Shown here: positions 5,478 through 20,598 of the stretch, piece by piece
Layout of the letters: each line of letters opens with the position of its first letter
Position numbering within the stretch: the first letter of the stretch is position 1
Source of the DNA: a virus
DNA length: 20,598 nucleotides
Direction: 5' to 3' (one strand)
Virus record (IMG/VR): IMGVR_UViG_3300036651_000849
Coordinates: 1 to 20,598 of that record
Notes under the pieces: model-generated
Told to the model about the DNA's origin: nothing
Databases searched by the model: none
Seen by the model: the letters and a program-made list of their open reading frames with translations, nothing else
Made by a program: the position numbers and the translations under genes

Positions 5478-5632
5478 CCCCGTGGCAGTGCAAATACTGC
5501 GGCCACGCCTACGTTGTCCCATCTCTCGCCCGCGACTGCGAGCGCCGCTCCGAAGGGGGTGCATACCCGTGCCACTTACGCACGTCGGACAGGTTGCCCT
5601 CGTCCGTACTCGCGGCATCCTCCCGTGGTTGA
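5474..5632 (+). CDS. Small zinc-finger-like protein, 52 aa
   Basis: ATG 5474 overlaps the previous stop. The first 34 residues are a compact zinc-finger pattern: WQCKYCG, then LARDCE, then YPCH, similar to small phage C-x2-C zinc fingers with an aromatic strand between the pairs. The last 18 residues overlap the start of the next gene in a different frame (64 nt shared) and are low-complexity, so only the N-terminal part may be under selection for this protein. Confidence 0.62.
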   Translation: MTPWQCKYCGHAYVVPSLARDCERRSEGGAYPCHLRTSDRLPSSVLAASSRG

Positions 5633-6084
5633 TCCGGTTCTTCACCCGCGGCGCCAACGGTAGACCCGCCCGGTTCAACCACATGGTTGTCGGAATACAG
5701 GGCGGCGACACTGTCTCCGCAGAGCACCGGAACGTCCGCATCCGGCATCAAACCCATTTCAAACTGATCGTCTGGTCGCAGTTCACCGAGACGGAGTTGC
5801 AGCATTGGGAGGTTGCCGACTTCGCCTACCAGCAGATCGGGAAACCGTACAACTGGTGGGCGGACTTCTGGATACTGATCTCGATCCTCACCCGCCGGCA
5901 CACGCCCAGATGGGTCGAGGAACGCCTCAACGACGGCACCCATTGGCAGTGCGCGCAACTCGCGTACGCGTCGCTGATGGCGGCACATCCGGCCGTTGAA
6001 GTGCTAAAGGATGCGCGCCCGCCGGCTACCCGGTTCCCGGGCGCGTTCGAGAAACTGTGGATGGAGAGAGGCTGGCTGACCTGA
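5569..6084 (+). CDS. Permuted NlpC/P60-like (papain-fold) protein, 171 aa
   Basis: I chose GTG 5569 because GAAGGGGG (5552-5559) lies at good spacing and the upstream extension from 5482 is Arg-rich and overlaps the previous gene fully. In permuted NlpC/P60 proteins the catalytic His strand comes before the Cys helix; here FNHMVVGI (H38) precedes GKPYNWWADFW (91-101) and WQCAQLAY with C128 at a helix start. Members act as peptidases, amidases or acyltransferases. It could cut peptidoglycan peptides during lysis or entry, or modify a host substrate. A hydrophobic segment WILISILT (101-108) lies mid-protein but is too short for a clear membrane helix. Family assignment is by motif only. Confidence 0.7.
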   Translation: MPLTHVGQVALVRTRGILPWLIRFFTRGANGRPARFNHMVVGIQGGDTVSAEHRNVRIRHQTHFKLIVWSQFTETELQHWEVADFAYQQIGKPYNWWADFWILISILTRRHTPRWVEERLNDGTHWQCAQLAYASLMAAHPAVEVLKDARPPATRFPGAFEKLWMERGWLT

Positions 6085-8031: not shown

Positions 8032-11001
8032 ATGGGACTGCTGGACAACGCGCGCCGCGCCGCCCTCGCTCTCGCTGGGGTGCAGAAGGCGACCCCTGCA
8101 AGTAAGGATCTTGTTGTCCTCGCGAACCAGAATCAGGGCATGGACGGGCGTACCCCGCTCGGCCCGGGGATGCCGCTCAACCCGGCCTGGGGTATCGACC
8201 AGACTCCGCGCCGGTTCGACTACCAGCCGGGCCGGAACATCACCACCAGACCGCGCTCCGACTCCCGTATCTCCTTCTCAACACTCCGTGACTTCATCGA
8301 CGCGTACGATGTTGCCCAAGTGTGCATCACCCACCGGATCGACTCGATTCGGGCGTTGCCGTGGGAGATTGTCCCCGTTGATGGGGTGACCGAGAATGTG
8401 GATCGGGCGATCATGGAGGCCCGCCGGGTGATGGCGAAACCTGACGGCCGCACCCCCCTGTTCACGATGCTCGGTGAGTACCTGTGGGACATCCTCGCCT
8501 ACGACGCTGGCTGCCTGTACAAAGTCCGGAACAACGCCGGTCAAGCGATCGGCCTGAAACCGATCGACGGCACCACCATCGCCCCTCTGCTCGACGGCTG
8601 GGGGGATGTGCCGGATGGTGACGCCTCCGCATATGTGCAGATCATTCACGGCATCCCGGTCGAGTGGTACACGTACGACCAGCTCGTCTATGAGCCGTTC
8701 CGGAAAATCACCAACACACCGTACGGGCGAGCTCCGCTCGAAGCGGTCATCGTGAACGCCTCCACCGATGTCAAATTTCAGATGCATTTCCTCCGCAACT
8801 TCACCAGCGGGAACATCCCCGACATGTTCGGGATTCTCCCCGATGGCACCACCCCGGAGCAGAAGGACGCATGGCAGAAGTCGTACGATGCGATCCTCGC
8901 CGGGGATGAGGATGCGAAGTCGCAGATCAAATGGATGCCGCCGGGAGTCAAGTTTCAGGAGGTCAACCCGCACGCGTTCGATAAGGACATTGCGGCCTGG
9001 TTCGAACGGAAAACGACTGCTGCTTTCCACATGACCCCGCAAGACCTCGGCTACATCGTCGACGTGAACCGGGCGAACGGGGAAACCCAGGAAGGGCTCA
9101 CCGAACGTGTCGGTGACCTCCCGCTCCGGGAGCATGTCAACGGCGTGTTCACTCGTTTCCTGCAAGAGGACATGGGCCTCCCGGTCGAGTTCCGGTTCGA
9201 TGCGGGTGGGGAGACTGAGGACCGTCTCGCGACCGCCCAATCCGACAAGGTGTACGTGGAGATGGGTGCCGTGTCGGTGTCCGATATCGCGGAGGCCCGG
9301 TTCGGGATCGTCGACGAGCAGAAGGTTCCCCGGTTCGTTCTCGTTCCGAAGATCGGCCCGATCCCGTTGTCCTCTGTCGAGGCGGCGTCCGGTCCGGTCG
9401 ACCCGGAAACGGCGGAACCGATGCCCGGTACGATCACCCCCGCCACCGAGGCGGACCCGCAGAAGATTCAAGCGCTCACGATCTCCGATGGCGGGAAACC
9501 GACCCCGCAAGAGTCTGTCCTGAACGAGGGCGGTTCGCTCGCCGCGGCGGTTGCTGTGAAGTCCGCAGCATCCGTCAACGATGAGCGGGCGGCGTTCCGG
9601 AAGTTCGTCGAGACGCGCCGGAAACGGGGCACCTGGCGTGACTTCCAGTTCCGTACCGCTGGCGTCCGCGACGCGCACGAGCTCAACAAGCTCGGGCTCG
9701 CCGTCATTCGCAAGGATGCCGGTCAGGTCGCCGTTGCTGGGCTCGCCATTCTCGCTGAGGACACCGGGCGTGTGCTGATGATTCAGCGCGCACTCGACCC
9801 CACCGACCCGAATCAGGGCACGTGGGAGTTCCCGGGCGGACATCTGGAGGCAGGAGAAACGCCAGCCATCGCAGCGTCCCGAGAGTGGCAAGAGGAAGTC
9901 GGTGTTCCGATCCCAGCCGGTCAAATGACCGATGGGACTTGGGGCAACGGCCACTACCAGGGGTTCGTCATGCTCGTCCCCACGGAGGCGGATGTGCCGT
10001 GCCGGATCGGATCGACTGAAGTCCTGAACCCGGACGACCCGGACGGCGACAACATCGAGACGGTCGCATGGTGGGACCCGAAGCAGTTGGTCGGCAACCC
10101 GGCTGTGCGCGTGGACCTGCAAGCCGACATATCAGATGTACTTGTCGCCTTGCGCGGCGAACCTGCAGTGGAGGCCGATGCCGTCCCTTTTGAGAAGGGC
10201 TGGCGTGACGGCCAGCCGAAAACGCCGATGCACAACTACGACCTCCAAATCATCGACTACTACCAGCCGTTGCTTGTGAAAGCGCTCACCGACTGGATCT
10301 CGTCGTTACCGATCGGAGAGGTTGCCGCTGCGCACGCTGCCTCCTTCCTGAAATCGGGTGAGGGTGACGATATCGCCGCCGGACTCGACGACGGAACCGG
10401 CCCGGACATGGAGGTTGCACTCCGCTCCATGTCCACGGCCGGCTACCTGACCGGTTCACATGGTGGCGCGCAGCAGGTCGCGCAGCAACTCGGCGTCGAT
10501 TCGGTGCCCTCGTTCGCGGGGACTCTCAACGACATCGACTGGGCCACCTGGACACCCGGCGACACCGTCGCAGCGCAAGCCGCAGCGGACGGCGGGTTGG
10601 AGTCGCTGCTGAACTCGGCCGGTGTCACCATCCAGTCGGTGAAGCAAACGGTTCTCGGTCAGCTTGGCGATGCGATCGCCGAGGGGCTCGGCCGGGGTGA
10701 CTCGGTCGACTCGATCGCGAACAGCATCACCGACCTGGTCGATATTCCCGGCCGGGCGACGATGATCGCCGCGACCGAGACGGCGCGCGCGCAAACCGCG
10801 GGCGCATCCGGCACGTACTCCGACAACGGGGTGACCGAGTGGGATTTGGTCACCGCAGACGGGGCCGGCCCGGAATGCACCGACATCGAAGACCAGAACC
10901 CGCACCCTATGGGTGATGAGGGGGCTAAGCCTCCGCTTCACCCGTTCTGCCGCTGCTCAATGGCACCGGTCGCAGCAACCATCATCACCCCCAACGAGTA
11001 A
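8032..11001 (+). CDS. Portal - Nudix hydrolase - MuF fusion protein, 989 aa
   Basis: Residues 1-560 are a portal protein of the actinophage type: the clip/stem region includes YEPFRKITNTPYGRAPLE (220-237) and FHMTPQDLGYIVDVNRAN (332-349). Portals form the dodecameric DNA channel. Residues about 565-707 form a complete Nudix domain; the Nudix box spans G603-V625 with G603, E609, R617, E618, E621, E622 and G624 all in place. Nudix enzymes cleave nucleoside diphosphates linked to another moiety. Residues about 730-980 match MuF/SPP1 gp7 minor head proteins: a helical region, then ATETARAQTAG (914-924) and the Cys/His end C949, DIEDQNPHP (951-959) and HPFCRC (970-975). The frame is continuous through both joints. 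AAAGGG precedes the ATG. A portal alone is usually about 450-550 residues. Confidence 0.94.
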   Translation: MGLLDNARRAALALAGVQKATPASKDLVVLANQNQGMDGRTPLGPGMPLNPAWGIDQTPRRFDYQPGRNITTRPRSDSRISFSTLRDFIDAYDVAQVCITHRIDSIRALPWEIVPVDGVTENVDRAIMEARRVMAKPDGRTPLFTMLGEYLWDILAYDAGCLYKVRNNAGQAIGLKPIDGTTIAPLLDGWGDVPDGDASAYVQIIHGIPVEWYTYDQLVYEPFRKITNTPYGRAPLEAVIVNASTDVKFQMHFLRNFTSGNIPDMFGILPDGTTPEQKDAWQKSYDAILAGDEDAKSQIKWMPPGVKFQEVNPHAFDKDIAAWFERKTTAAFHMTPQDLGYIVDVNRANGETQEGLTERVGDLPLREHVNGVFTRFLQEDMGLPVEFRFDAGGETEDRLATAQSDKVYVEMGAVSVSDIAEARFGIVDEQKVPRFVLVPKIGPIPLSSVEAASGPVDPETAEPMPGTITPATEADPQKIQALTISDGGKPTPQESVLNEGGSLAAAVAVKSAASVNDERAAFRKFVETRRKRGTWRDFQFRTAGVRDAHELNKLGLAVIRKDAGQVAVAGLAILAEDTGRVLMIQRALDPTDPNQGTWEFPGGHLEAGETPAIAASREWQEEVGVPIPAGQMTDGTWGNGHYQGFVMLVPTEADVPCRIGSTEVLNPDDPDGDNIETVAWWDPKQLVGNPAVRVDLQADISDVLVALRGEPAVEADAVPFEKGWRDGQPKTPMHNYDLQIIDYYQPLLVKALTDWISSLPIGEVAAAHAASFLKSGEGDDIAAGLDDGTGPDMEVALRSMSTAGYLTGSHGGAQQVAQQLGVDSVPSFAGTLNDIDWATWTPGDTVAAQAAADGGLESLLNSAGVTIQSVKQTVLGQLGDAIAEGLGRGDSVDSIANSITDLVDIPGRATMIAATETARAQTAGASGTYSDNGVTEWDLVTADGAGPECTDIEDQNPHPMGDEGAKPPLHPFCRCSMAPVAATIITPNE

Positions 11002-11311: not shown

Positions 11312-11659
11312 ATGCTCGCAGTAGCAGGCAAAACGCTCATGGCGACCGCGTATGCGGCGAACGTGGGTATCTACGGGGCGCTCAGCACCACCGCTCCCGG
11401 CTCATCCGCTGGCACCGAGGTTTCCGGTGGCGCCCCCGCCTACGCGCGGCTCGCCCCGGCCTGGGGTGCCGCATCGGCGGGCGCGATCACCACCACCGCG
11501 GCGTCCGCGTTCAACGTCCCCGCCTCCACCACCGTTGTCGGCTACGAGTTCTACACCGCCGTCACCGCTGGCACGTATGAGGACGGCGCGACGATCACAT
11601 CGCAGACGTTCGCATCTCAGGGCGTGTACTCCATCACGCCAACCTTCACCCAGAGCTAG
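11312..11659 (+). CDS. Decoration/fiber-like structural protein, 115 aa
   Basis: GGAGG at 11299-11303 precedes ATG 11312. The protein is Ala/Thr/Gly-rich and almost entirely beta-like. It has the pattern EVSGGAPAYARL, then a Trp-Gly-Ala turn, FNVPASTTVVGYEFY and a final strand, which I recall from small structural proteins next to fiber genes of actinophages. It contains no cysteines or charged core. It is distantly similar in layout to the next gene (EVSG, Tyr, strand, ARY/GYE strand). A virion surface or fiber role is inferred from composition and place. Confidence 0.78.
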   Translation: MLAVAGKTLMATAYAANVGIYGALSTTAPGSSAGTEVSGGAPAYARLAPAWGAASAGAITTTAASAFNVPASTTVVGYEFYTAVTAGTYEDGATITSQTFASQGVYSITPTFTQS

Positions 11660-11670
11660 GGGGCCGTATC

Positions 11671-12297
11671 GTGGCTGTCTCAGGATCGTTCTACCGTGGG
11701 GTGATGGCGAAAGCCTGGAATGTGGAGATCGACTTCAACTCCGACGTGATCAAACTCATGCTGTGCACGAGCTCGTACACCCCCGACCTTGACGCGCATG
11801 TGTACAAGTCGTCTGTCACCAACGAGGTATCCGGTACCGGATACACGGCGACCGGTGCGGTGCTGGGATCGGCGACGGTCGCGGACTTCTCCGGGAACAC
11901 GTACACGACCACTCGTGCCGCCACAACCGCGTACACGGTCGGGCAGATCGTCCGCCCCGCCACCGGCAACGGATACCTGTATCAGTGCTCCGCCGCCGGC
12001 ACAACCGCGTCCGGGCTGCCCACCTACCCGACCGTTGTCGGGCAGACTGTCGCAGACGGCACCGTCACCTGGACGTGTGTCGGCCGTGGCATCATGGTCC
12101 TGTCCGGGTCGAACGTGTCCTGGACAACCGCGACGATCACCGCCCGCTATGCGGTCCTCTACGACTCGACCCCCGCCTCGGATGCCACCCGGCCGCTGAT
12201 CGCGCTGATCGACTTCGGTGCGGACCAGACATCCACGGCGGGTACGTTCCTCGTCCAGTGGGACCCGTCCGGTATCGCCTACGTGCTGATCGCATGA
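11671..12297 (+). CDS. Fiber/decoration-like structural protein with an inserted beta module, 208 aa
   Basis: GTG 11671 follows AGGGGG (11658-11663). The outer domain, residues 1-77 and 139-208, matches a phage structural family I recall: DVIKLMLCTSSYTPD (25-39), NEVSGTGYTATG (51-62), ATITARYAVLYD (154-165) and LIALIDFGADQTS (176-188). Between them, residues 78-138 look like a separate insert: TAYTVGQIVRPATGNGYLYQC then a Gly/Pro loop and DGTVTWTCVG, the strand-Cys pattern of small carbohydrate-binding-like modules in phage fibers. So the module is nested inside another domain. The stop overlaps the next ATG by four bases. Surface adsorption or decoration is inferred. Confidence 0.82.
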   Translation: MAVSGSFYRGVMAKAWNVEIDFNSDVIKLMLCTSSYTPDLDAHVYKSSVTNEVSGTGYTATGAVLGSATVADFSGNTYTTTRAATTAYTVGQIVRPATGNGYLYQCSAAGTTASGLPTYPTVVGQTVADGTVTWTCVGRGIMVLSGSNVSWTTATITARYAVLYDSTPASDATRPLIALIDFGADQTSTAGTFLVQWDPSGIAYVLIA

Positions 12298-13841
12298 TCA
12301 CCGTAGCCACCTTCAAGGTGAAGGACCGCTTCACCGTTGAAGGTGTCGGCACACCGATCCAGGTGGGGCTCCCAACCGGGAGCTCCGCCGGGGTGGTTGC
12401 CCCTGTCGTGTCGACTGGTGCGCCCGGCGCCACCATCAACGCGGTTCCGATGGGCGCTCACGGTGGCACCGGCACCCCGTCCGCTTCCGTGTCCAGTTCG
12501 GGCGGCTCCGACTGGTCCGTCTCGAATCTCCCCCAGACATACACGTCCACGGCTCAACTCACGACCGACGCAGCATGGTCGGGCGCGACGATCGTCGACA
12601 TTCAGACCGGCGGTTCCGACTTCTACACCAACCTCGCGAACACGGTCGCCGCGGCTGGCGGTCGCTGCGTTGTGCGTCTCGTCGGCGGGACCGTCTATCA
12701 TCTGACGTCGTTCCGGCTGATCGGCGGCTCCGGTGACCAGACGTACTCGTTCGGGTTCTGGTTCCCGAACCTCCGCGGCTTCATCAGCAACTCGACATCG
12801 CAAGCGATCATCCAGATGGATGCGAACTCGATGTCGGCGGCGCAACTCAGCGCACTCCAGGCGATGACCCCGAGTAGCGGTAGCAGCCCGAACCAGATGG
12901 GCCTGTGCCGGATCGACGGGTCCGCCGCCTCTCCGGTGTTGCTCGCCGGAATCAAATTCCGTTCCGCGGATCAGCAGAACCTCACATCGCAAGCCGCCGG
13001 CGCGACCCCCGCGATGGTGGTTCCGCAGCCTGCCCCGCATCAGGGTGTCGTGATCTACTACAACGCGACCTCGTACATTTCGTACTGTGCGTTCATCGGC
13101 GCAGGGCGCGCATCGACATCGTCTCCGCCGTTCGAGCAAGGCAACATCACGACGGCGCAAGGCATCCACCACATCCACAACTGTGAATTCGACGGGCGCC
13201 GGGATGCGGCGATCGATGCGGCGCAGCCGACCCGTTGCGGTCCGATCATGGGCAACAACGAGACTGAGCATCACCTGGTCGATGTGTGGCTGCATGACTC
13301 GAATGTGTCCCGGTATGCGGTCAACGACCAGAACTCCGCCACATCCGGCACGTACGAGGCGACCCGAGTCAAGTCGGAGCGAATCTCGAACAACCACAAC
13401 ATCGACCCGGCCCTGAACAGTGGGGTGTCGCTCGGCGGCTACACGAACGCGTCGAATTTCGGGTGGGAGTCCTGCAATGGGACGATCAACGTCACCGATA
13501 CGATCATCTCCGTCGATGACCCGAACCTGGATGGGCAGTTCCCCGCACATCTACAGTTGACGTCAGTCGGTTCCCGGAACCCGCAAGGCGGCCGGTTGCA
13601 TGTTCGCGGTGGGACCTTCCATCACACCGCGTTCTCCCAGTTGGAGGGGTATCTGACGTTCCGGATCGCGATGACGACGTTCTGGTGGACGGACGGCATC
13701 GCGACCACGTTGGATGTGCGGCAATCGAACAACACTCCGATGACCGGATGGCAGTTCACCGGCACCTGGCCGCCGACCGCCGGGCAGATCGCGACTGCGG
13801 GAATCTCACCGACCACGCACTACATCTACAAAGGAGTCTGA
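12294..13841 (+). CDS. Beta-helix tail-spike/fiber-like protein, 515 aa
   Basis: I chose ATG 12294 (ATGA overlap); the frame runs open upstream to 11985 but that part is an Arg-rich shadow of the previous gene. Residues about 19-70 contain two copies of a 24-residue repeat shared with the next gene. Residues about 120-480 have the features of a right-handed parallel beta-helix: repeated short strands separated by Asn/Gly turns (VVIYYNATSYISYCAF, GIHHIHNCEF, HHLVDVWLHDSNV). Many phage spikes of this fold bind or cut polysaccharides; no catalytic pair can be named by eye. The C-terminal 60 residues are Thr/Trp-rich. It sits between portal and protease, so head fiber or host-adsorption spike are both possible. 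Confidence 0.78.
   Translation: MITVATFKVKDRFTVEGVGTPIQVGLPTGSSAGVVAPVVSTGAPGATINAVPMGAHGGTGTPSASVSSSGGSDWSVSNLPQTYTSTAQLTTDAAWSGATIVDIQTGGSDFYTNLANTVAAAGGRCVVRLVGGTVYHLTSFRLIGGSGDQTYSFGFWFPNLRGFISNSTSQAIIQMDANSMSAAQLSALQAMTPSSGSSPNQMGLCRIDGSAASPVLLAGIKFRSADQQNLTSQAAGATPAMVVPQPAPHQGVVIYYNATSYISYCAFIGAGRASTSSPPFEQGNITTAQGIHHIHNCEFDGRRDAAIDAAQPTRCGPIMGNNETEHHLVDVWLHDSNVSRYAVNDQNSATSGTYEATRVKSERISNNHNIDPALNSGVSLGGYTNASNFGWESCNGTINVTDTIISVDDPNLDGQFPAHLQLTSVGSRNPQGGRLHVRGGTFHHTAFSQLEGYLTFRIAMTTFWWTDGIATTLDVRQSNNTPMTGWQFTGTWPPTAGQIATAGISPTTHYIYKGV
12348..12503 (+). repeat. Two copies of 24-residue repeat A in the spike gene
   Basis: The encoded segment contains two units of the pattern xVxxxPxGxxxGxxxPxxS (VGLPTGSSAGVVAPVVS and INAVPMGAHGGTGTPSAS). 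The same unit occurs five times in the next gene at 14496-14855, where TVTAIPAGATSGAVPPVIS is a clear example. The copies are diverged in DNA, so this is a protein-level repeat. Confidence 0.7.
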
Positions 13842-13844
13842 TTC

Positions 13845-16052
13845 ATGGCCGTCGTCAGTAACACCTTTGAAGGCGGTACTGACGGCGTCGCTGTGACCAC
13901 CGCGAACTCGGGTGGCGCATCCGGGACCGCGTTCGATGCGATCTTCGGGACTGGGCTCACGTTCAGTTCCGCGGACAACTACGACGGAGTGATGGGGGCG
14001 AAGGTTGCCGCCTCGGCGTTCGGCGGCGGGCAGTACACGCTCGCCTCGATCACATCATGCGCGGCGGAGATCGTCGTCGACATGAAGGTGTTGTCGACGG
14101 GTGACGCGCACCTGATCTACTTCTCCGATGCGACCGGGCGTATCTTCTCCGTCCACATCAACGGGGCCGGGAAGCTCCGGGTCGATGACGCGACCGGGAC
14201 GACCGGCGTATTCACGTTCACGAACGTGCTCACCGCCGGTTCGAAGTACCTAATCAAAGTGTTCGCGACAGCCGGATCAACAACCTCGAACGGGGTCATC
14301 AAAGTCGCCTACTACGCGTACGGCTCCACCACCCCGGCGGAAACCGAGTACGTGAACAGTGCCGCGAATTTGGGTGCGGGCCGCACGTTCACGAAAACAC
14401 TCATGGGGAAGCTGACCGCCTCCGCTCAGGAGTATGGGTTCGACGACTTCGCATTCGATCCGGCCGCGACGGACCTGATCCCGTTCGCCACGAATATCAC
14501 CGTCGTCGCACCGCCAGCCGGGGCGACCTCGGGTGCGGTCGCCCCGACCCTCTCCACAACGGTCGGTGCCACCGTCACCGCGATCCCTGCTGGTGCAACG
14601 TCGGGTGCGGTTCCTCCTGTCATCTCGGCGGAAGCGGACGCGACTGGTACGAGCCTCCCCGGCGGGTACTCCGCCGTCGTCACCCCGACTGTCACCGCGG
14701 GTACTGGGGTGACAGTCACCGCGATCCCGTTCGGTGGGCAGGCGGGCGCATACCCAGGCTCGGGCGCTGTCGCTGGAACCAACGCCACCGTCACCGCGAT
14801 CATGAACGGTGGGGCGGTCGGCGGGACTGTCGCCCCGACCGTCATTCTGACGTTCTTCGCCACCAGCACCCTCACCGGCACTGGCACACTGACAGCGGCG
14901 CTCGCCGCCGCAACCGGAACCACGGCTGGTTTCGGCGGGACCGGCTCGCTGAGCGCGATCGTCACGCCCAGCATCAGCCGCCCCAGCACCCTCACGGGTG
15001 CGGGTGTGCTCAGTGATACCGTCCAACCGACCATCAACTCGACCGCTGCGCTCACCGGCACCGGTAGCATCACCGCCACAACGGCTGTGCTCGCCCCTGC
15101 AAGCCTTTCGGGTGCGGGTGCGCTAACTACTACGGTGACGGAATCTACGGCCGCCACAGCAGCGTTCAGCGCCGCTGGGACGATGGCCACGGCGGTCGCG
15201 CCTACCGTTCTGGCGTCGGCGACACTGACCGGCTCCGGGAACATGGAGGCAGTCGCGGGTATCCAAGCCCTCGCCGCACTGACTGGTACCGGCACGCTCG
15301 CCGCAACCGTAGCCAACCTGATCGTCAGCAGCACAGCCGCCCTCACCGGGGCGGGCGCGCTCAGCGGAGCAACCCGGCCCGCGACAGCGACAAGTGCGGC
15401 CTTCACGGGGTCGGGTGCTCTCTCCGCGGCTGTGAGCCCAGCAACCGGAGCGTCTGCCACCTTCACCGGAACTGGCTCGCTCGCCGCGGGTGTCAGTGCA
15501 CAGTTCTCCGACGTCGCCACTCTCGGCGGTGCTGGTGTTCTGGCGGGTGCGACAATCCTCTCGACCGGTACTCCCGGCCCGCTCGTCGGGATGGGCACCC
15601 TGTCGACGGTCGGATTCGGGACGGGCGGCACCGCATCCGCATTCACCGGCTCCGGGGCACTCACCGAAACCGACAGCGCAGCACTGTCCGCGTCCGCTGC
15701 GCTCGCCGGGACCGGGAACCTGACACCCGCCTCAACTCCGACACTCAACGGCACCCCGAGATTGACGGGGGCCGGGGATATGGAGGCGGTCGGGGTGCAG
15801 AACATCGACGGGACAGCAGCGCTCACCGGGTCCGGGGGAATGTTCCTGTCCCTCGCCCCGCAAATCGGGGTGGCGACGGTCCTTTCCGGTAGCGGTCAAC
15901 TGGTCACTTCATCGAGGAGCTCGGTGTTCGCCCCCGCCACTTTGAGCGGCGTCGGCACCTTGGCCGCTACCGGCATCGCCCGCAACCGGCAAGCCGTGTT
16001 CTTCACCATCGACCAGGCGTCGTTCCGCTGGCAACTCAGACAGGAGGCATGA
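13845..16052 (+). CDS. Repeat-rich virion fiber-like protein with lectin-like N-terminus, 735 aa
   Basis: AAGGAG (13831-13836) precedes ATG 13845. Residues 1-205 look like a laminin G/concanavalin-like beta-sandwich: alternating strands such as AEIVVDMKVLS, HLIYFSDATGRIFSVHING and YLIKVFATAG. Such domains often bind glycans. Residues 218-337 are five copies of repeat A (about 24 residues). Residues about 340-716 are about 19 copies of repeat B, about 20 residues each, with core aLTGxGxL. A short aromatic end FFTIDQASFRW closes the protein. It is nearly free of Cys and has few charged residues in the repeats, fitting an extended beta-solenoid or fiber shaft. An adsorption or head-fiber role is inferred. 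The stop overlaps the next ATG. Confidence 0.83.
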   Translation: MAVVSNTFEGGTDGVAVTTANSGGASGTAFDAIFGTGLTFSSADNYDGVMGAKVAASAFGGGQYTLASITSCAAEIVVDMKVLSTGDAHLIYFSDATGRIFSVHINGAGKLRVDDATGTTGVFTFTNVLTAGSKYLIKVFATAGSTTSNGVIKVAYYAYGSTTPAETEYVNSAANLGAGRTFTKTLMGKLTASAQEYGFDDFAFDPAATDLIPFATNITVVAPPAGATSGAVAPTLSTTVGATVTAIPAGATSGAVPPVISAEADATGTSLPGGYSAVVTPTVTAGTGVTVTAIPFGGQAGAYPGSGAVAGTNATVTAIMNGGAVGGTVAPTVILTFFATSTLTGTGTLTAALAAATGTTAGFGGTGSLSAIVTPSISRPSTLTGAGVLSDTVQPTINSTAALTGTGSITATTAVLAPASLSGAGALTTTVTESTAATAAFSAAGTMATAVAPTVLASATLTGSGNMEAVAGIQALAALTGTGTLAATVANLIVSSTAALTGAGALSGATRPATATSAAFTGSGALSAAVSPATGASATFTGTGSLAAGVSAQFSDVATLGGAGVLAGATILSTGTPGPLVGMGTLSTVGFGTGGTASAFTGSGALTETDSAALSASAALAGTGNLTPASTPTLNGTPRLTGAGDMEAVGVQNIDGTAALTGSGGMFLSLAPQIGVATVLSGSGQLVTSSRSSVFAPATLSGVGTLAATGIARNRQAVFFTIDQASFRWQLRQEA
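14496..14855 (+). repeat. Five copies of 24-residue repeat A
   Basis: Units start at about residues 218, 243, 267, 290 and 315 of the 735-residue protein. Four begin with a TV-x-A strand and Pro or Met-Asn, for example TVTAIPAGATSGAVPPVIS and TVTAIPFGGQAGAYPGSG. The unit continues with small residues and ends with Pro and a strand. Related units occur in the upstream spike gene at 12348-12503. Confidence 0.75.
14862..15992 (+). repeat. About 19 tandem copies of 20-residue repeat B
   Basis: The protein segment 340-716 repeats the core (A/S)-x-L-T-G-x-G-x-L at a period close to 20 residues (about 60 nt), for example ATLTGSGNMEAVAGIQAL, AALTGTGTLAATVANLI and AAFTGSGALSAAVSPATG. Counting cores gives about 19. 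A few units are one or two residues shorter. DNA copies have diverged at third positions, so the array is selected as protein. Copy number could vary between relatives. Confidence 0.85.
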
Positions 16053-16357
16053 TGGCGCAGCCTGTGATCGTCGTCAGCGAGGGATACTCGCGGCAATGCG
16101 GCGGCAACATCATCGAGTTATACGGGACGAACATCACCGGCGACACGGTACAGATGGGAGTCTCGGCGGACCCGCTCGTCCGCCCGACCTCATGGTCCGC
16201 CCCGACAACGTTGCTCTCGATCAGCCCGTCCGTGATTCATGTGATGCTGCTGCTCGACAACACGTACGCGCCGGGCGTGTATTGGTTGTGGGTGCAGATC
16301 ACGGACGGGCAGGACAAGGAGCCGATCCCGTTCCCGGAACCGTACCGGCTGATCTAA
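16052..16357 (+). CDS. Small beta-rich structural protein, 101 aa
   Basis: Two adjacent ATGs are possible, 16049 and 16052; AGGAGG at 16042-16047 is better spaced for 16052. The protein reads as a compact beta-sandwich: VIVVSEGYS, IIELYGTNITGDTVQMGV, VIHVMLLLD and VYWLWVQITDGQD. It resembles small Ig-like/IPT-like phage fiber or decoration domains, but this is by appearance only. It ends the fiber block, two bases before a strong terminator stem. No membrane or signal segment. Confidence 0.75.
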   Translation: MAQPVIVVSEGYSRQCGGNIIELYGTNITGDTVQMGVSADPLVRPTSWSAPTTLLSISPSVIHVMLLLDNTYAPGVYWLWVQITDGQDKEPIPFPEPYRLI

Positions 16358-16359
16358 CA

Positions 16360-16389
16360 CGAATGCCCCCGATCTCTCGGGGGCATTCG
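16360..16389 (+). terminator. Strong stem-loop terminator ending the fiber operon (possibly bidirectional)
   Basis: CGAATGCCCCCGA (16360-16372) pairs perfectly with TCGGGGGCATTCG (16377-16389) around a TCTC loop, a 13-bp stem. It begins 2 bases after a stop codon. It lies between convergent genes: the plus-strand block ending at 16357 and the minus-strand cassette ending at 16475, so it could stop both. A T-run is lacking. The rest of the gap, 16390-16474, is GC-rich with only a weak 7-bp stem (16428-16434 with 16452-16458). Confidence 0.85.
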
Positions 16390-16474
16390 GCCGTCAGTGT
16401 AACTGTCCAGCTTAGTCTACTCCGGCGGGGCGGCGGGGGCTTCCTTATCTGGCCGCCCACCGTCCCGGGTGTCT

Positions 16475-16612
16475 TTACTCGGTGACTTCCCACCGGATGT
16501 ACTCGCCGCACTTCTCGCAAGGCAGGACGGCGTGGCCGATCAGTCCGGCTTCATCCCATACGACCTCGGACGCTCCGAACTCGACCGGTTGGGGATGAGT
16601 GCAGGCGCTCAT
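16475..16612 (-). CDS. Minus-strand zinc-ribbon-like protein, 45 aa
   Basis: Reading the minus strand, ATG at 16612-16610 overlaps the previous stop by four bases (ATGA) and the frame ends in TAA at 16477-16475. The protein begins with MSACTHPQP and has CEKCGEYIRWEV near its end. One Cys-x-His and one CxxCG knuckle make a likely zinc ribbon. The core between them is acidic with VVWDEAGLIGH. It is the last gene of the minus-strand cassette. No family recognised. Confidence 0.72.
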   Translation of the reverse strand: MSACTHPQPVEFGASEVVWDEAGLIGHAVLPCEKCGEYIRWEVTE

Positions 16613-16971
16613 CGCGCACCCCGAATCTCGTTCCATTGCGCGTCGGTTACCCAGGCGTGGGCGTCGAACCCGATGCCGTGGAGGCCGATCGAGATGTTGC
16701 TGCCTTGATGGTTTTGGTACCGCTTGACCGAAACAGCCACACCCGAATCCCCCTCCACGTCGCGGGCGTAAACGGCCCCCGTGGGGATGACGAGATCGTC
16801 GGGTTGGCCTGCCGCGTGATCCTCCCAGGCAAGATACGCGTCGAACGCGGTCTGCCCGTCGAAGTCAGCCCGGCCGACCCCGTCACCGTCCGGGTTGTGG
16901 CAAGTGCAGATCGCCGTCCAGTGGCTACTGACGCCATCGAACTCCAGGCTGTCCATCTTGTGCTTGCTCAT
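16609..16971 (-). CDS. Minus-strand hypothetical protein, 120 aa
   Basis: The minus-strand ATG at 16971 has an AGGAGCAGGA ribosome site just upstream. Residues 1-60 read like a short Trp- and Cys-containing domain (WTAICTCHNPDGDG, then DGQTAFDAYLAWEDHAAG), similar in style to small actinobacterial proteins that carry a W-x-A-x-C-x-C strand. Residues 61-120 hold a strand-rich half (IPTGAVYARDVEGDSGVAVS) and a helical end (AWVTDAQWNEIRG). The antisense open frame at 16636-16986 is a shadow. Function unknown. Confidence 0.8.
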   Translation of the reverse strand: MSKHKMDSLEFDGVSSHWTAICTCHNPDGDGVGRADFDGQTAFDAYLAWEDHAAGQPDDLVIPTGAVYARDVEGDSGVAVSVKRYQNHQGSNISIGLHGIGFDAHAWVTDAQWNEIRGAR

Positions 16972-16982
16972 GATTCCTGCTC

Positions 16983-17180
16983 CTAGTCGCGAAGGGTCGT
17001 GTCGGTTGCGGAGACGATCTGGGCCTCGGTCCAGCCGTCCTGGCGGAGTTGCAGGTAGCACTCCTCAGCGTCCGCCTCGTTCTTGCGAACGTGGAGGAGC
17101 AGTTCGTCGGCTGTCTTCTCAGCCAGCGGTGCATGGTAACGGCCGGTTGCGATCGGGCGTTGGCTCCGGAATGCGGTCAT
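16983..17180 (-). CDS. Minus-strand helical hypothetical protein, 65 aa
   Basis: I place the start at the minus-strand ATG 17180, which has GAGGTGG (plus coordinates 17186-17192) five bases upstream. An in-frame TTG at 17213 is less likely. The protein is basic at the N-terminus, then mainly helical and acidic (LAEKTADELLLHVRKNEADAE, followed by LRQDGWTEAQIVSATD). Residues 46-60 could be a helix-turn-helix-like pair but are not convincing. It is the first gene of the minus-strand cassette, 11 bases before the next. Confidence 0.74.
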   Translation of the reverse strand: MTAFRSQRPIATGRYHAPLAEKTADELLLHVRKNEADAEECYLQLRQDGWTEAQIVSATDTTLRD

Positions 17181-17263
17181 TTGGACCACCTCACTTTCTC
17201 TCTCTACTACCAATATAGCTTATTGCGGCTCGGATATCTAGTCCCCAATCGAAAGGCACGCTG
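17181..17263. promoter_or_regulatory. AT-rich divergent intergenic region, likely promoters and an operator
   Basis: This 83-base spacer lies between the starts of the minus-strand cassette and the head-maturation genes and is clearly AT-richer than its surroundings. CAATATAGCTTATTG at 17211-17225 has CAATA/TATTG inverted arms and could be an operator. On the minus strand TATATT (17217-17212) is a possible -10 at suitable distance from ATG 17180, and on the plus strand TATAGC (17214-17219) and TATCTA (17235-17240) are weak candidates. No convincing -35 was found for either. GAAAGG (17251-17256) is the ribosome site for the plus gene. Confidence 0.6.
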
Positions 17264-17653
17264 ATGACTGACGAAGAGGACCGGTTCGTCCTCGGCATCG
17301 CCTACCAGGCGGGCCGCGACCCGAACATCAAAAAAGGTGCGGACGGGTACCGCGACTGGGCGACTGAGCGCGAGATCGAGTTGGCGTGCCACGGGTTCAT
17401 GAAAGCGGGCGGGCAACGCTCCGGTGTGTTCCACATCGACGGAACCGACACAGCCGGCCACGCCCGCATCGTCGAGAACTACGTCTACCGGAACCCGAAC
17501 CCCTGGATTCTGGAAGACGGACAAGTCGTGAAGATGGGCGACTGGCTCATCGGCGCGATCGTCGACGAGACAGCGTGGGACATGGTCAAGTCGGGGAGAA
17601 TCACCGGCTGGTCCCCGCAAGGGAAAGCGCGGCGGGTGCATTCCGATGACTGA
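17264..17653 (+). CDS. XkdF-like prohead protease, 129 aa
   Basis: XkdF-type serine proteases mature the phage prohead by cutting scaffold and capsid protein. The pattern fits: a helix ACHGFMKAG (41-49), H57 in a strand, H66 then the strand IVENYVY (69-75), GDWLIGAIVDETAW (92-105) and GRITGWSPQGKARR (111-124), with S117 as the expected nucleophile in the GWS turn. Domain size is about that of the minimal protease. In related phages the protease is often followed directly by, or fused to, scaffold sequence; here two genes intervene. ATG 17264 has a ribosome site at good spacing; the stop overlaps the next gene by 8 nt. Confidence 0.86.
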   Translation: MTDEEDRFVLGIAYQAGRDPNIKKGADGYRDWATEREIELACHGFMKAGGQRSGVFHIDGTDTAGHARIVENYVYRNPNPWILEDGQVVKMGDWLIGAIVDETAWDMVKSGRITGWSPQGKARRVHSDD

Positions 17654-17828
17654 GCATGACGCGCTCGTGGCGCTCACCGTCCTCCATCGTGAAGGCCACT
17701 ACCAGGAGCAGGACGAGTACGGCTACGCGGAGAACGTGACGCCGTGCTGCATGACTTGCCCCAACTCCGTCGGTTGGCCGTGCGAGACACGTCAGATCAT
17801 CGACCAAGCGCTCGGAGGCACCAAGTGA
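17646..17828 (+). CDS. Small Cys-rich protein between protease and PLD gene, 60 aa
   Basis: ATG 17646 overlaps the protease stop by 8 nt. The first half is helical and polar (EHDALVALTVLHREGHYQEQ); then CCMTCPNSVGWPCE gives four closely spaced Cys, a probable zinc knuckle, followed by a helix QIIDQALGG. The stop forms a GTGA overlap with the next gene, so it is translated with the head operon. Function unknown; the Cys pattern is like the early small zinc proteins of this window. Confidence 0.72.
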   Translation: MTEHDALVALTVLHREGHYQEQDEYGYAENVTPCCMTCPNSVGWPCETRQIIDQALGGTK

Positions 17829-18457
17829 TTGACGACGACCCGCGCATCGGCGCCCTCATCTCCGCGTACACCCCGGAAGGGCTCGCCGGGGTCCCGCCGA
17901 CCGGATACGGCGACCAATACCTGTTCTTCGTCGGCCGCGACGACTGCCACTCGATCCTGCATCATCTGATCCCGCTTGAACCGCTGCTGTTCAAAGGCAA
18001 CATGTTCGGGTTCGACGATGACGAACTCAACGCTGACATTCTCGGCCTGTTCAAGAACCCGGCCGTGCATGTGCAGTTCACCCTCGACCGATCCCAGGCG
18101 GGCGGCGTTCACGAGAAGAAACTGATCGCCTTCGACCAGGCCACCGACCCGACGAACTTCGGGTACAGCTTCGCGATCGGCCAATCTCTCACCCACCAGA
18201 TCAGCCACACGAAGGGCGGCATCCTCGCCGGACTCGGGATCGGGTTCGAGGGGTCGATGAACTGGTCGAACTCCGGTGAAGGTACCGGCATCAACCTCCG
18301 CCCCGGACCGCAGAAGGCGGGCTGGCAAGCCCAGAACAACACCCTGCTCGTCTCTACCAACCCTGTGTTCCTGTCGCGCTTCTCGGCGCGCCTCGACGTG
18401 GAGCACTCCATCGCGCAAGCCCAACAGCTTGCGCGGCAACAGAAGGGCTCCGCATGA
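17825..18457 (+). CDS. Phospholipase D-superfamily protein (single HKD-like motif), 210 aa
   Basis: The C-terminal half carries a PLD active-site signature: SHTKGGI with H128 and K130, then GSMNWSNSGE (143-152), where GSxN and the following acidic residue fit the family. The usual Asp six residues after the Lys appears replaced by small residues. The N-terminal half also fits the fold: FKGNMFGFDDDELNADI (56-72), then AVHVQFTLD (80-88). Only one motif is present, so activity would need a dimer, as in single-motif PLD nucleases. Members cleave phosphodiesters of DNA, RNA or lipids. Start GTG 17825 and stop both lie in 4-nt overlaps, coupling it to protease and scaffold. Its role in a head operon is unclear. 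Confidence 0.82.
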   Translation: MIDDDPRIGALISAYTPEGLAGVPPTGYGDQYLFFVGRDDCHSILHHLIPLEPLLFKGNMFGFDDDELNADILGLFKNPAVHVQFTLDRSQAGGVHEKKLIAFDQATDPTNFGYSFAIGQSLTHQISHTKGGILAGLGIGFEGSMNWSNSGEGTGINLRPGPQKAGWQAQNNTLLVSTNPVFLSRFSARLDVEHSIAQAQQLARQQKGSA

Positions 18458-19821
18458 CCTCGTCACTCGAACTAGAAGACGAAGACGGTTTCACGAAAAT
18501 CGTCGACCTCGACGTGCCCCGCGTGGACCTCGTCGACCGTGCAGCGAATGGCACCCATTTCCTGCTCACCAAATCCGAAGAATCCGCGGACGCGGGACTG
18601 CTCTCCACCGACCAGGTGCGGGCGCTCGCTAAGGCATCAACCGAACTGGAGGAACCCCCCGTGTCCGACCCCGTCGTGAAGGACAACCTCGACCCGACCG
18701 AAACTCTGGTGGGCGATTCGCCTGCCGCCTCGACGCCGTCCTCCCCGGAGTGGGAGCAGGTCGACCACGACACTGCGCAGAAGTTCATTTCGATCCTGAA
18801 CTTCGCCCAGTACGCCATCACCGAACTCGCCGGCCGGGAAGCCCAGGAGGGTGTCGCGGGAGCGGATGACGGGTGGGAGAACGAATGGAACCTCGAAGAC
18901 GCCGCGTGCGCGATCGAGTACGCCCGCGGAATCCTCGCCGTGTACGCGGCCGGGGAGAAGGGTGACATCGAAATCTCGGAGGAGATGGAGAAGGCGTCCG
19001 CGATCGTGAAGGCGCTTCAGCCGCTCGCTGAGTTCGACATCGTCGGCACGCAGTCCGCTGTCGCCGTCCGCAAATCCGGCCGGGTTCTCTCGGCCAAAAA
19101 CGAAACGCTTCTCCGCGACGCGGCTGAGGCTCTCACGAAGGTGTTGGGGTCGCTGCCCCTCGCCCCCGAAACGGAGGAAACCGTGACGAAGAACGACGAG
19201 TCCGTCGAGGTCGAGAAGACCGAGGGCGAAGAAGTGACCGAGCCGGTCGTGAAGGCCGACGACGACACCACCGACGACACCGACGACCAGTTGGTTGTCG
19301 TGTTCGACTCGAACAAAAACATCCTCGGCGTTGTGCCGGAATCCGCGATCCAGCCCGTCAAGGGTGCCGCGGCTCCGGAAGCCGAGGCAGAGACTCCCGC
19401 CGCCCCCGCGGCGGAGGACACGACTGCTGCGCCGAAGGCTGACGCCGGAATCGCAGCGGACGTAGCGAAGGGTGAGGAGCCCGATGCCGCCGAAGGTGAC
19501 TTCACGAAGGAGCTCGCGGAACTCCGTGAGCTCGTGAAGTCGCAGGCAGAGGACATCAAGTTCCTGAAATCGCCGGCTAAGCCGCGTGTCGCAATGAACG
19601 GGGTCACCCCGAAGGGGCCGATGCCCCTGCCGCAGAACGACCGACAGACCACTGATGTGGAGAAGTCGGAAGTGACTGAGGAAGAGATCGACGTGCTCAA
19701 AGCCGCCGCTCTCACCGGGACGGTTGCGGAGCAGGAAGCCGCGAAGAACCGTCTCACCGAGATCACTGCTGCGTCGTGGCAGGACCTCCGCGCCCAGGCC
19801 GCCAGCCGGTTCCGGCGTTAG
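18454..19821 (+). CDS. Acidic scaffold-like protein with XkdF-associated N-terminus, 455 aa
   Basis: It starts with an ATGA overlap. Residues about 14-40 (IVDLDVPRVDLVDRAANGT then FLLTKS) are a motif I associate with protease/scaffold proteins of the XkdF type. Residues 105-180 form a helical domain including WEQVDHDTAQKFISILNF. Most of 240-350 is Glu/Asp/Ala/Pro-rich and disordered. A short coiled-coil FTKELAELRELVKSQAEDI (about 350-368) and a helical C-terminus ending in RASRFRR-like basic residues are typical of scaffolds that bind capsid protein. It lies between protease and capsid gene, as scaffolds do, and would be degraded on maturation. Two in-frame GTG codons with ribosome sites may give shorter forms. 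Confidence 0.8.
   Translation: MTSSLELEDEDGFTKIVDLDVPRVDLVDRAANGTHFLLTKSEESADAGLLSTDQVRALAKASTELEEPPVSDPVVKDNLDPTETLVGDSPAASTPSSPEWEQVDHDTAQKFISILNFAQYAITELAGREAQEGVAGADDGWENEWNLEDAACAIEYARGILAVYAAGEKGDIEISEEMEKASAIVKALQPLAEFDIVGTQSAVAVRKSGRVLSAKNETLLRDAAEALTKVLGSLPLAPETEETVTKNDESVEVEKTEGEEVTEPVVKADDDTTDDTDDQLVVVFDSNKNILGVVPESAIQPVKGAAAPEAEAETPAAPAAEDTTAAPKADAGIAADVAKGEEPDAAEGDFTKELAELRELVKSQAEDIKFLKSPAKPRVAMNGVTPKGPMPLPQNDRQTTDVEKSEVTEEEIDVLKAAALTGTVAEQEAAKNRLTEITAASWQDLRAQAASRFRR
18648..18663 (+). promoter_or_regulatory. Possible internal ribosome site and GTG start in the scaffold gene
   Basis: GGAGGAA at 18648-18654 lies 8 nt (GGAGG to codon) before an in-frame GTG at 18661. Starting there gives 386 residues beginning VSDPVVKD and drops the XkdF-type N-terminal segment. 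The site also encodes Glu-Glu, so chance is possible. Confidence 0.45.
19173..19185 (+). promoter_or_regulatory. Second possible internal ribosome site and GTG start in the scaffold gene
   Basis: GGAGG at 19173-19177 is five bases before an in-frame GTG at 19183. Starting there gives 212 residues, mainly the acidic region and the C-terminal coiled coil. Sequence and spacing resemble the site at 18648. Glu-rich coding could create both by chance. Confidence 0.4.
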
Positions 19822-19863: not shown

Positions 19864-20598
19864 ATGGGTGTTCCCATTGAAGACATCGCCAAGGAGACTC
19901 TCGACGAGATCACCAAGGCACAGACCACAGGCATCCTCGAATCGACGGGCGCCTACAGTTACGACCTGACCGGCATCGTCCGGCTCATCCCGGTCGTGAC
20001 GCCGTTCCGCGACAGTGTCGCCCGTGAAGGCTCGAAGAACGGTTCGCCGTTCGCGGTCTGGCGTGCGTTCCTGAACGTGAACTCCAGCCAGCCGCGCGCC
20101 ACGCCGGGCTTCGACTACGCGTCGAACGAAGTCGTGTTCGCTGAGCAGGACTTCCAGGCGAAATACCAGCCTGTCGGTCTGGCCGGCCTCGTCACCCAGG
20201 ATGCGTACGACCTCGCGCAGGGCCTCTACGACCCGTACGCGGAGTCCACGTTCCAGGTGCTCAACCAGACGCTGATCGCGGAGGACAAGCTCCTCATCGG
20301 TTCGCAGTCGTACCCGCTGCCGCAGCCGGTCGCCCCCACCCTCCAGGTGTCGACGACTCTCGGTTCGATCGGTGCTGTCACCCTCTGGGTCGGCGTCGCC
20401 GCACGTACCGGGGCCGGCTTCTACTGGTCCGGGAACTCGCGCGGCAACTCCGCCTCCACGGCGGCGCTGTCCGGCTCGACCAACCAGGTCACCGCGTCGA
20501 TCCCGTCGTTCCCGAAGGGCGCCATCGCGCTCGACTGGTTCTACTCGACCAACGCCGGCGTCACCGTGTACTACGCAGGAACCTCCTCGACGTCGTCG
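19864..20598 (+). CDS. Major capsid protein, HK97-like (partial, 245 aa visible)
   Basis: The frame is open from ATG 19864 (AAAGGG ribosome site at 19851-19856) to the window end, so the C-terminus is missing. Residues 28-150 look like an HK97-fold capsid protein: IVRLIPVVTPFRDSVAREG (38-56), then YQPVGLAGLVTQDAYDLAQG (101-120) and helix STFQVLNQTLIAEDKLLIG (128-146). From about residue 150 the sequence turns into a beta-rich Gly/Ser/Thr stretch (VTLWVGVAARTGAGFYWSG, then IALDWFYSTNAGVTVYYAG), consistent with an inserted Ig-like or surface domain. It follows protease and scaffold, the expected order. The shell is built of several hundred copies. Confidence 0.88.
   Translation, partial: MGVPIEDIAKETLDEITKAQTTGILESTGAYSYDLTGIVRLIPVVTPFRDSVAREGSKNGSPFAVWRAFLNVNSSQPRATPGFDYASNEVVFAEQDFQAKYQPVGLAGLVTQDAYDLAQGLYDPYAESTFQVLNQTLIAEDKLLIGSQSYPLPQPVAPTLQVSTTLGSIGAVTLWVGVAARTGAGFYWSGNSRGNSASTAALSGSTNQVTASIPSFPKGAIALDWFYSTNAGVTVYYAGTSSTSS

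Follow-up and report, generated by a model that had tools for sequence, protein, structure and literature searches.

A diverged and mobile PLD subfamily in a phage head module, with a recurrent place next to lysis genes

Why should a PLD-superfamily gene lie between the prohead protease and the scaffold of a phage? This arrangement is found in the 20.6-kb virus record analysed here (hereafter the window), in which the PLD gene and a small gene for a Cys-containing protein separate the two head genes (Table 1). The initial annotation, which had this order right, considered a role for the PLD protein in the prohead and read both ends of the gene as 4-nt overlaps with head genes. For the scaffold side this is correct, as the PLD gene and the scaffold-like gene share 4 nt (18454-18457). 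The 4 nt shared at the 5' end (17825-17828), on the other hand, belong to the 60-aa Cys-containing gene, for which we found no evidence of a head role and whose product gave no match in the phage records searched. The protease overlaps this small gene by 8 nt and has no contact with the PLD gene, which therefore touches one head gene and not two. The PLD ORF is intact, with a GGAGG just upstream, and the N-termini of the homologues in L002 and L007 (MTDDPRI.../MDDPRI...) favour the GTG at 17825 over an upstream GTG at 17744. The dN/dS values of 0.25-0.33 against these two nearest relatives indicate that the gene is under purifying selection.

Table 1. Features of the window that bear on the PLD gene
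Feature	Position	Strand	Remarks
Putative papain-fold protein (NlpC/P60, YiiX-like by eye)	5482..6084	+	phrog_1128
Prohead protease, XkdF / Peptidase_S78_2	17264..17653	+	E 1.5e-13 (Pfam)
60-aa Cys-containing protein, putative cargo partner inserted with PLD	17646..17828	+	phrog_23623, E 0.0019
PLD-superfamily single-HKD protein	17825..18457	+	210 aa; GTG start; HTK 128-130, GSMN 143-146
Scaffold-like protein between protease and capsid genes	18454..19821	+	PHROGs; same place in Mufasa8, Sonali
Major capsid protein, cut by record end	19864..20598	+	41% to Mufasa8 major capsid protein

The HxK and GSxN elements that had suggested a PLD protein are both present (Table 1). Used alone as a query, the window protein found no match in Pfam, PHROGs, NCBIfam, the PDB sequences or INPHARED (50,697 phage records); two of its relatives likewise had none in the 50,697 phage records, and for one of the two a search of 72,556 plasmid records was also without a match. 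A family of about 48 loci emerged when uncultivated viral contigs and a set of genomes, one per species, were scanned (17 loci viral and 31 from bacterial genomes); it appears to be an undescribed PLD subfamily. The initial annotation had staked its assignment in part on the conservation of H128 and K130. In an alignment of 37 members both are invariant, together with G143, S144 and N146. The further invariant positions are V36, G37, D39, H42, M60-G62, D64/D65, L87/D88 and S90/Q91 as well as, among others, H96/E97, Q125, E142, E152 and N172. The polar residues D39, H42, D64, D65, S90, Q91, H96 and E97 of this set lie outside HxK and GSxN and are not explained by the known PLD mechanism; they could mark a specific substrate site.

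The defining signature of the PLD superfamily is HxK(x)4D(x)6GSxN (PMC5714352), and it is found in its exact form in 23 of the 37 members. The other 14 read HTKGG...GSxNWS, in which the Asp is missing and the spacing is one residue longer; among them is the window protein, which has Ala135 in place of the Asp and one more residue before GSxN. The window protein is thus a diverged, non-canonical member of the PLD fold. In profile comparisons PLDc_2 matches 28 of the 37 (best E 2.6e-7, many below the Pfam cut-off) and the DrmC model of PADLOC 19 (best E 7.8e-6), in neither case including the window protein, while the NucT models of NCBIfam match 20. Each 210-aa chain carries one HxK...GSxN, as in single-HKD proteins of the Nuc/NucT type (about 150-200 aa). 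Profiles A1 and A2 gave only weak matches to PDB sequences, with FAM83A, a PLD-fold protein, among those of A2. SIR2 defence models matched 21-22 members, which we judged to be a local resemblance and not membership; the single SIR2 alignment seen (PDB 8j4u) spans just a short GFGFxDxHxN-like stretch.

An AlphaFold model of the monomer, calculated from the 37-sequence alignment, reached a pLDDT of 85 and a pTM of 0.84; a model from six sequences was useless (pLDDT 47) and was replaced by it. A Foldseek search of the PDB with this model returned 33 entries at E up to 0.001, every one a PLD-fold protein; Nuc, NucT, Zucchini, PLD3, FAM83 and TrmBL2 are among them. VIA-align, which gave Z values of 12-13.5 to PLD proteins, has NucT as the top match (6ehi; Z of 13.5, r.m.s.d. 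of 2.5 over 142 residues); next come Zucchini, Nuc, TrmBL2 and a bacterial phospholipase D, effectively tied at Z of 12.5-12.9. The assignment to the PLD superfamily is therefore supported by the PLDc_2 matches of the relatives, the modelled fold and the invariant active-site residues. The predicted fold alone, on the other hand, does not fix the substrate. We also asked whether the phage clade could be a pseudo-enzyme that uses the PLD fold for binding, in the manner of FAM83 or TrmBL2. Both of these are among the structural matches, the signature Asp is lost and the active-site loop is one residue longer, but the active-site His, Lys, Ser and Asn do not vary within the family, and we regard a pseudo-enzyme as quite improbable.

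If the gene belonged to the head module, related phages should be informative about its position. Searches with the capsid protein and the protease led to 25 further loci of this phage kind, and the junction could be compared in 23 relatives, among them L008, in which protease as well as scaffold had been identified. A PLD gene between protease and scaffold was present in none of the 23. As the initial annotation had noted for other phages, the two genes are frequently side by side or fused: in most of the relatives the stop codon of the protease and the start codon of the scaffold share 1-4 nt or are separated by no more than about 10 nt, or there is a single fused gene (L072, L073). Protease and scaffold are directly coupled in L008, and in Mufasa8 and Sonali, two cultured Arthrobacter phages, the protease and the next gene overlap directly by 4 nt, with no PLD gene there. 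In five of the 23 (L050, L062, L065, L066 and L068) the gap between the two genes holds unrelated sequence or genes. A Cys-rich protein with a CxxCxxCC-like start fills it in L066 (6739-7768) and L068 (6895-7858).

A PLD profile run over the loci with this head/terminase module found the gene, besides the window, in L002, L007 and L008 only. In all three its place is upstream of the terminase, and it runs into the start of a putative papain-fold gene that follows directly; the papain-fold homologue of the window is likewise located upstream of the terminase. The simplest account would be that relocation or re-acquisition brought the PLD gene of the window lineage to the protease/scaffold junction. 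The junction itself is a tolerated insertion point that holds other cargo in relatives. Could the protein nevertheless belong to the head as an enzyme, either active in the prohead or packaged and then ejected? Its position between protease and scaffold and the 4-nt overlap with the scaffold gene are in favour of this. However, that position is found in the window only and not in the 23 relatives or the two cultured phages, the sister PLD genes sit elsewhere, and start/stop overlaps are usual in these operons, the PLD coupling in L002, L007 and L008 included. The interpretation as a head gene thus fails on synteny, and we consider a head function very improbable. More generally, insertion between protease and scaffold does not by itself make a gene part of the head, and in these actinobacterial phages the junction is a site of cargo insertion.

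The capsid protein of the window has a homologue with 41% identity in Mufasa8 and Sonali, and an actinobacterial host is therefore likely on sequence grounds. A 98-aa look-alike of WhiB-type transcription factors (1467-1763, Cys pattern assigned by eye) points to an actinobacterial host. A single 989-aa protein (8032-11001) contains portal, NUDIX hydrolase and MuF-like domains according to Pfam, and Sonali is annotated with a portal-MuF fusion. Portal and protease are separated by about 6 kb (11312-17213) with tail- or fibre-like genes and three ORFs on the minus strand, whereas in L008, Mufasa8 and Sonali the two are adjacent or nearly so; the head module seems to have received a second, larger insertion at this place. 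The N-terminus of the scaffold (18454-18600) matches the N-terminal part of the head-maturation-protease family PHROG 3017, the later part of which matches the separate protease gene of the window, and this fits a protease/scaffold fusion or fission.

The phylogeny of the PLD family splits into a phage-type and a bacterial-type clade (support 100/99). The former comprises all viral contigs and two Pseudonocardiaceae genomes, the latter Pseudomonadota, Acidobacteriota, Bacteroidota, Chlorobiota and Verrucomicrobiota. The window PLD groups with L002 and L007 (support 88/86, inner pair 81/46), while L017, which keeps the full signature, is on a long branch and its placement is unsure. The neighbourhoods of the bacterial-type genes revealed no conserved family, save for flanks shared by Paraburkholderia and prophage-type genes. 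The dN/dS values among the Paraburkholderia PLD genes are 0.04-0.09. The species of this genus share conserved synteny at the locus.

In unrelated viral contigs the PLD gene is close to genes for cell-wall hydrolases of several kinds: an Rv2525c-type glycoside hydrolase (L006, L009), GH25 (L012, L013), CHAP (L014-L016) and phage lysozyme (L017/L018). The genes between PLD and hydrolases encode small membrane proteins, some of which match holins weakly, and in L006 a transglycosylase gene follows PLD. The same arrangement is present in prophage-like regions of bacterial genomes (L041 with CHAP; L042, a Polynucleobacter prophage whose PLD has the full signature, with phage lysozyme). In a whole-record search of 13 viral records for five hydrolase families, six records had a single hydrolase, which was always 16-2536 nt from PLD. 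Under random position the combined Fisher p is 0.0014 (0.0025 without one related record), a value that holds only for records in which a hydrolase was found and that was calculated after the neighbourhoods had been noticed. L003/L005 and the window itself showed no such arrangement, and L004, L010 and L011 are ambiguous. Lysis neighbourhoods often collect cargo genes, and proximity need not mean function. In the literature, as far as our incomplete coverage goes, we found no description of a PLD protein in a phage lysis cassette.

The window gene hence belongs to a new, diverged and mobile PLD subfamily with a recurrent address in lysis modules. We tentatively propose, with more doubt than conviction, that the Asp-less PLD subfamily is a recurrent accessory of lysis modules across actinobacterial and other phages, where it would act as a lysis-timed nuclease or phospholipase beside holin and endolysin, and that it is separate from a bacterial branch with the full signature and often histone-like tails. 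Should the link to lysis be functional, the holin-endolysin-spanin scheme usually given for phage lysis would have to be extended by a phosphodiesterase, and one purified protein would suffice to test whether this enzyme acts on host nucleic acid or on membrane phospholipid.

Which of the two targets is more plausible? A membrane-active phospholipase or cardiolipin hydrolase would help holin and endolysin to break the cell envelope. Several PLD copies are directly among holin-like and endolysin genes (L012, L013, L014-L016, L009), others are coupled to the putative papain-fold hydrolase (L002, L007, L008) or, in L025, lie near a lipase gene. Moreover, PLD-fold lipid enzymes (vaccinia F13, phosphatidylserine synthase) are also found among the structural matches, and the acidic PLD protein without a basic tail suits a lipid substrate. 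On the other hand, the best structure and profile matches are single-domain nucleases (NucT, Nuc, Zucchini, DrmC), and neither a signal peptide nor a membrane segment is apparent by eye in the window protein. Many bacterial-type members (e.g. L029, L031, L035 and L046, from soil bacteria) have Lys/Ala-rich, nearly acid-free tails that resemble histone H1; such basic tails would suit nucleic acid and speak for it as the substrate. Acidic pI values of about 5-6 were obtained for the catalytic cores and for the full-length phage proteins, and the phage proteins have no basic tails, which is unusual for a nuclease and, like the absence of an apparent signal peptide, counts against nucleic acid. 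The active-site groove of NucT is positively charged (PMC5714352), and core pI values of about 5 in the relatives argue against such a groove here. The missing signature Asp in the phage clade likewise weighs against a nuclease. On balance we estimate nucleic acid to be about twice as probable a substrate as lipid, and regard the phospholipase as rather unlikely.

A nuclease could also be carried as a moron that excludes superinfecting phages or acts against competitors. The cargo-like distribution, the similarity to the DrmC and NucT models and the bacterial-type genes without a conserved neighbour family are in line with this, yet no defence-island context was seen, and a gene in the late operon with lysis neighbours is more likely to be expressed late than in the lysogen. 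We consider such a moron distinctly unlikely.

Our preferred reading, in which belief and doubt are about evenly balanced, is that of a mobile, late-expressed, single-HKD and probably dimeric phosphodiesterase near lysis, with nucleic acid likelier than lipid as its substrate. The protein would be cytoplasmic, a small PLD-fold phosphodiesterase akin to Nuc, NucT and Zucchini, and the one HxK...GSxN half-site per chain would form the active site in a homodimer, by analogy with NucT and Nuc. In this site His128 would be the nucleophile, and Lys130 and Asn146 would bind the phosphate. As horizontally mobile cargo of the late operon, the gene may have been inserted in the window phage together with the 60-aa gene at the protease/scaffold junction, where the overlapping stop and start codons would keep the operon translationally coupled. 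The protein would be made late and could cut ssDNA or RNA around the time of lysis, as NucT does; it might degrade host nucleic acid or competing DNA, or ease the release of virions.

The head modules of Mufasa8 and Sonali have a portal or portal-MuF fusion, a capsid maturation protease, a scaffold-like gene and a homologous capsid protein in the same order as the window, but neither the PLD nor the Cys gene. Gene 53 of Arthrobacter phage Galaxy encodes a NucT-like nuclease and is another phage-encoded PLD fold (Foldseek probability of 0.97). It is located in the early region beside an ssDNA-binding protein, and as it is not alignable by profile we rejected it as a member of the same family. 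DrmC is the PLD nuclease of DISARM; among the neighbours of the family we recognised none of its DISARM partners. The window protein has the single-domain PLD nuclease fold in common with Nuc of plasmid pKM101 (PDB 1byr) (Z of 12.5 over 143 residues), although the identity is 12% and the window protein alone gives no detectable sequence match. NucT of Helicobacter pylori (PDB 6ehi; PMC5714352) shares the fold, the one HKD per chain and the catalytic His, Lys, Ser and Asn. It is 16% identical to the window protein, and the phage clade differs from it in being acidic, without the Asp and with a loop that is one residue longer. NucT is periplasmic and has a signal peptide, whereas none is apparent by eye in the window protein, and unlike NucT the present family is encoded by phages and soil bacteria.
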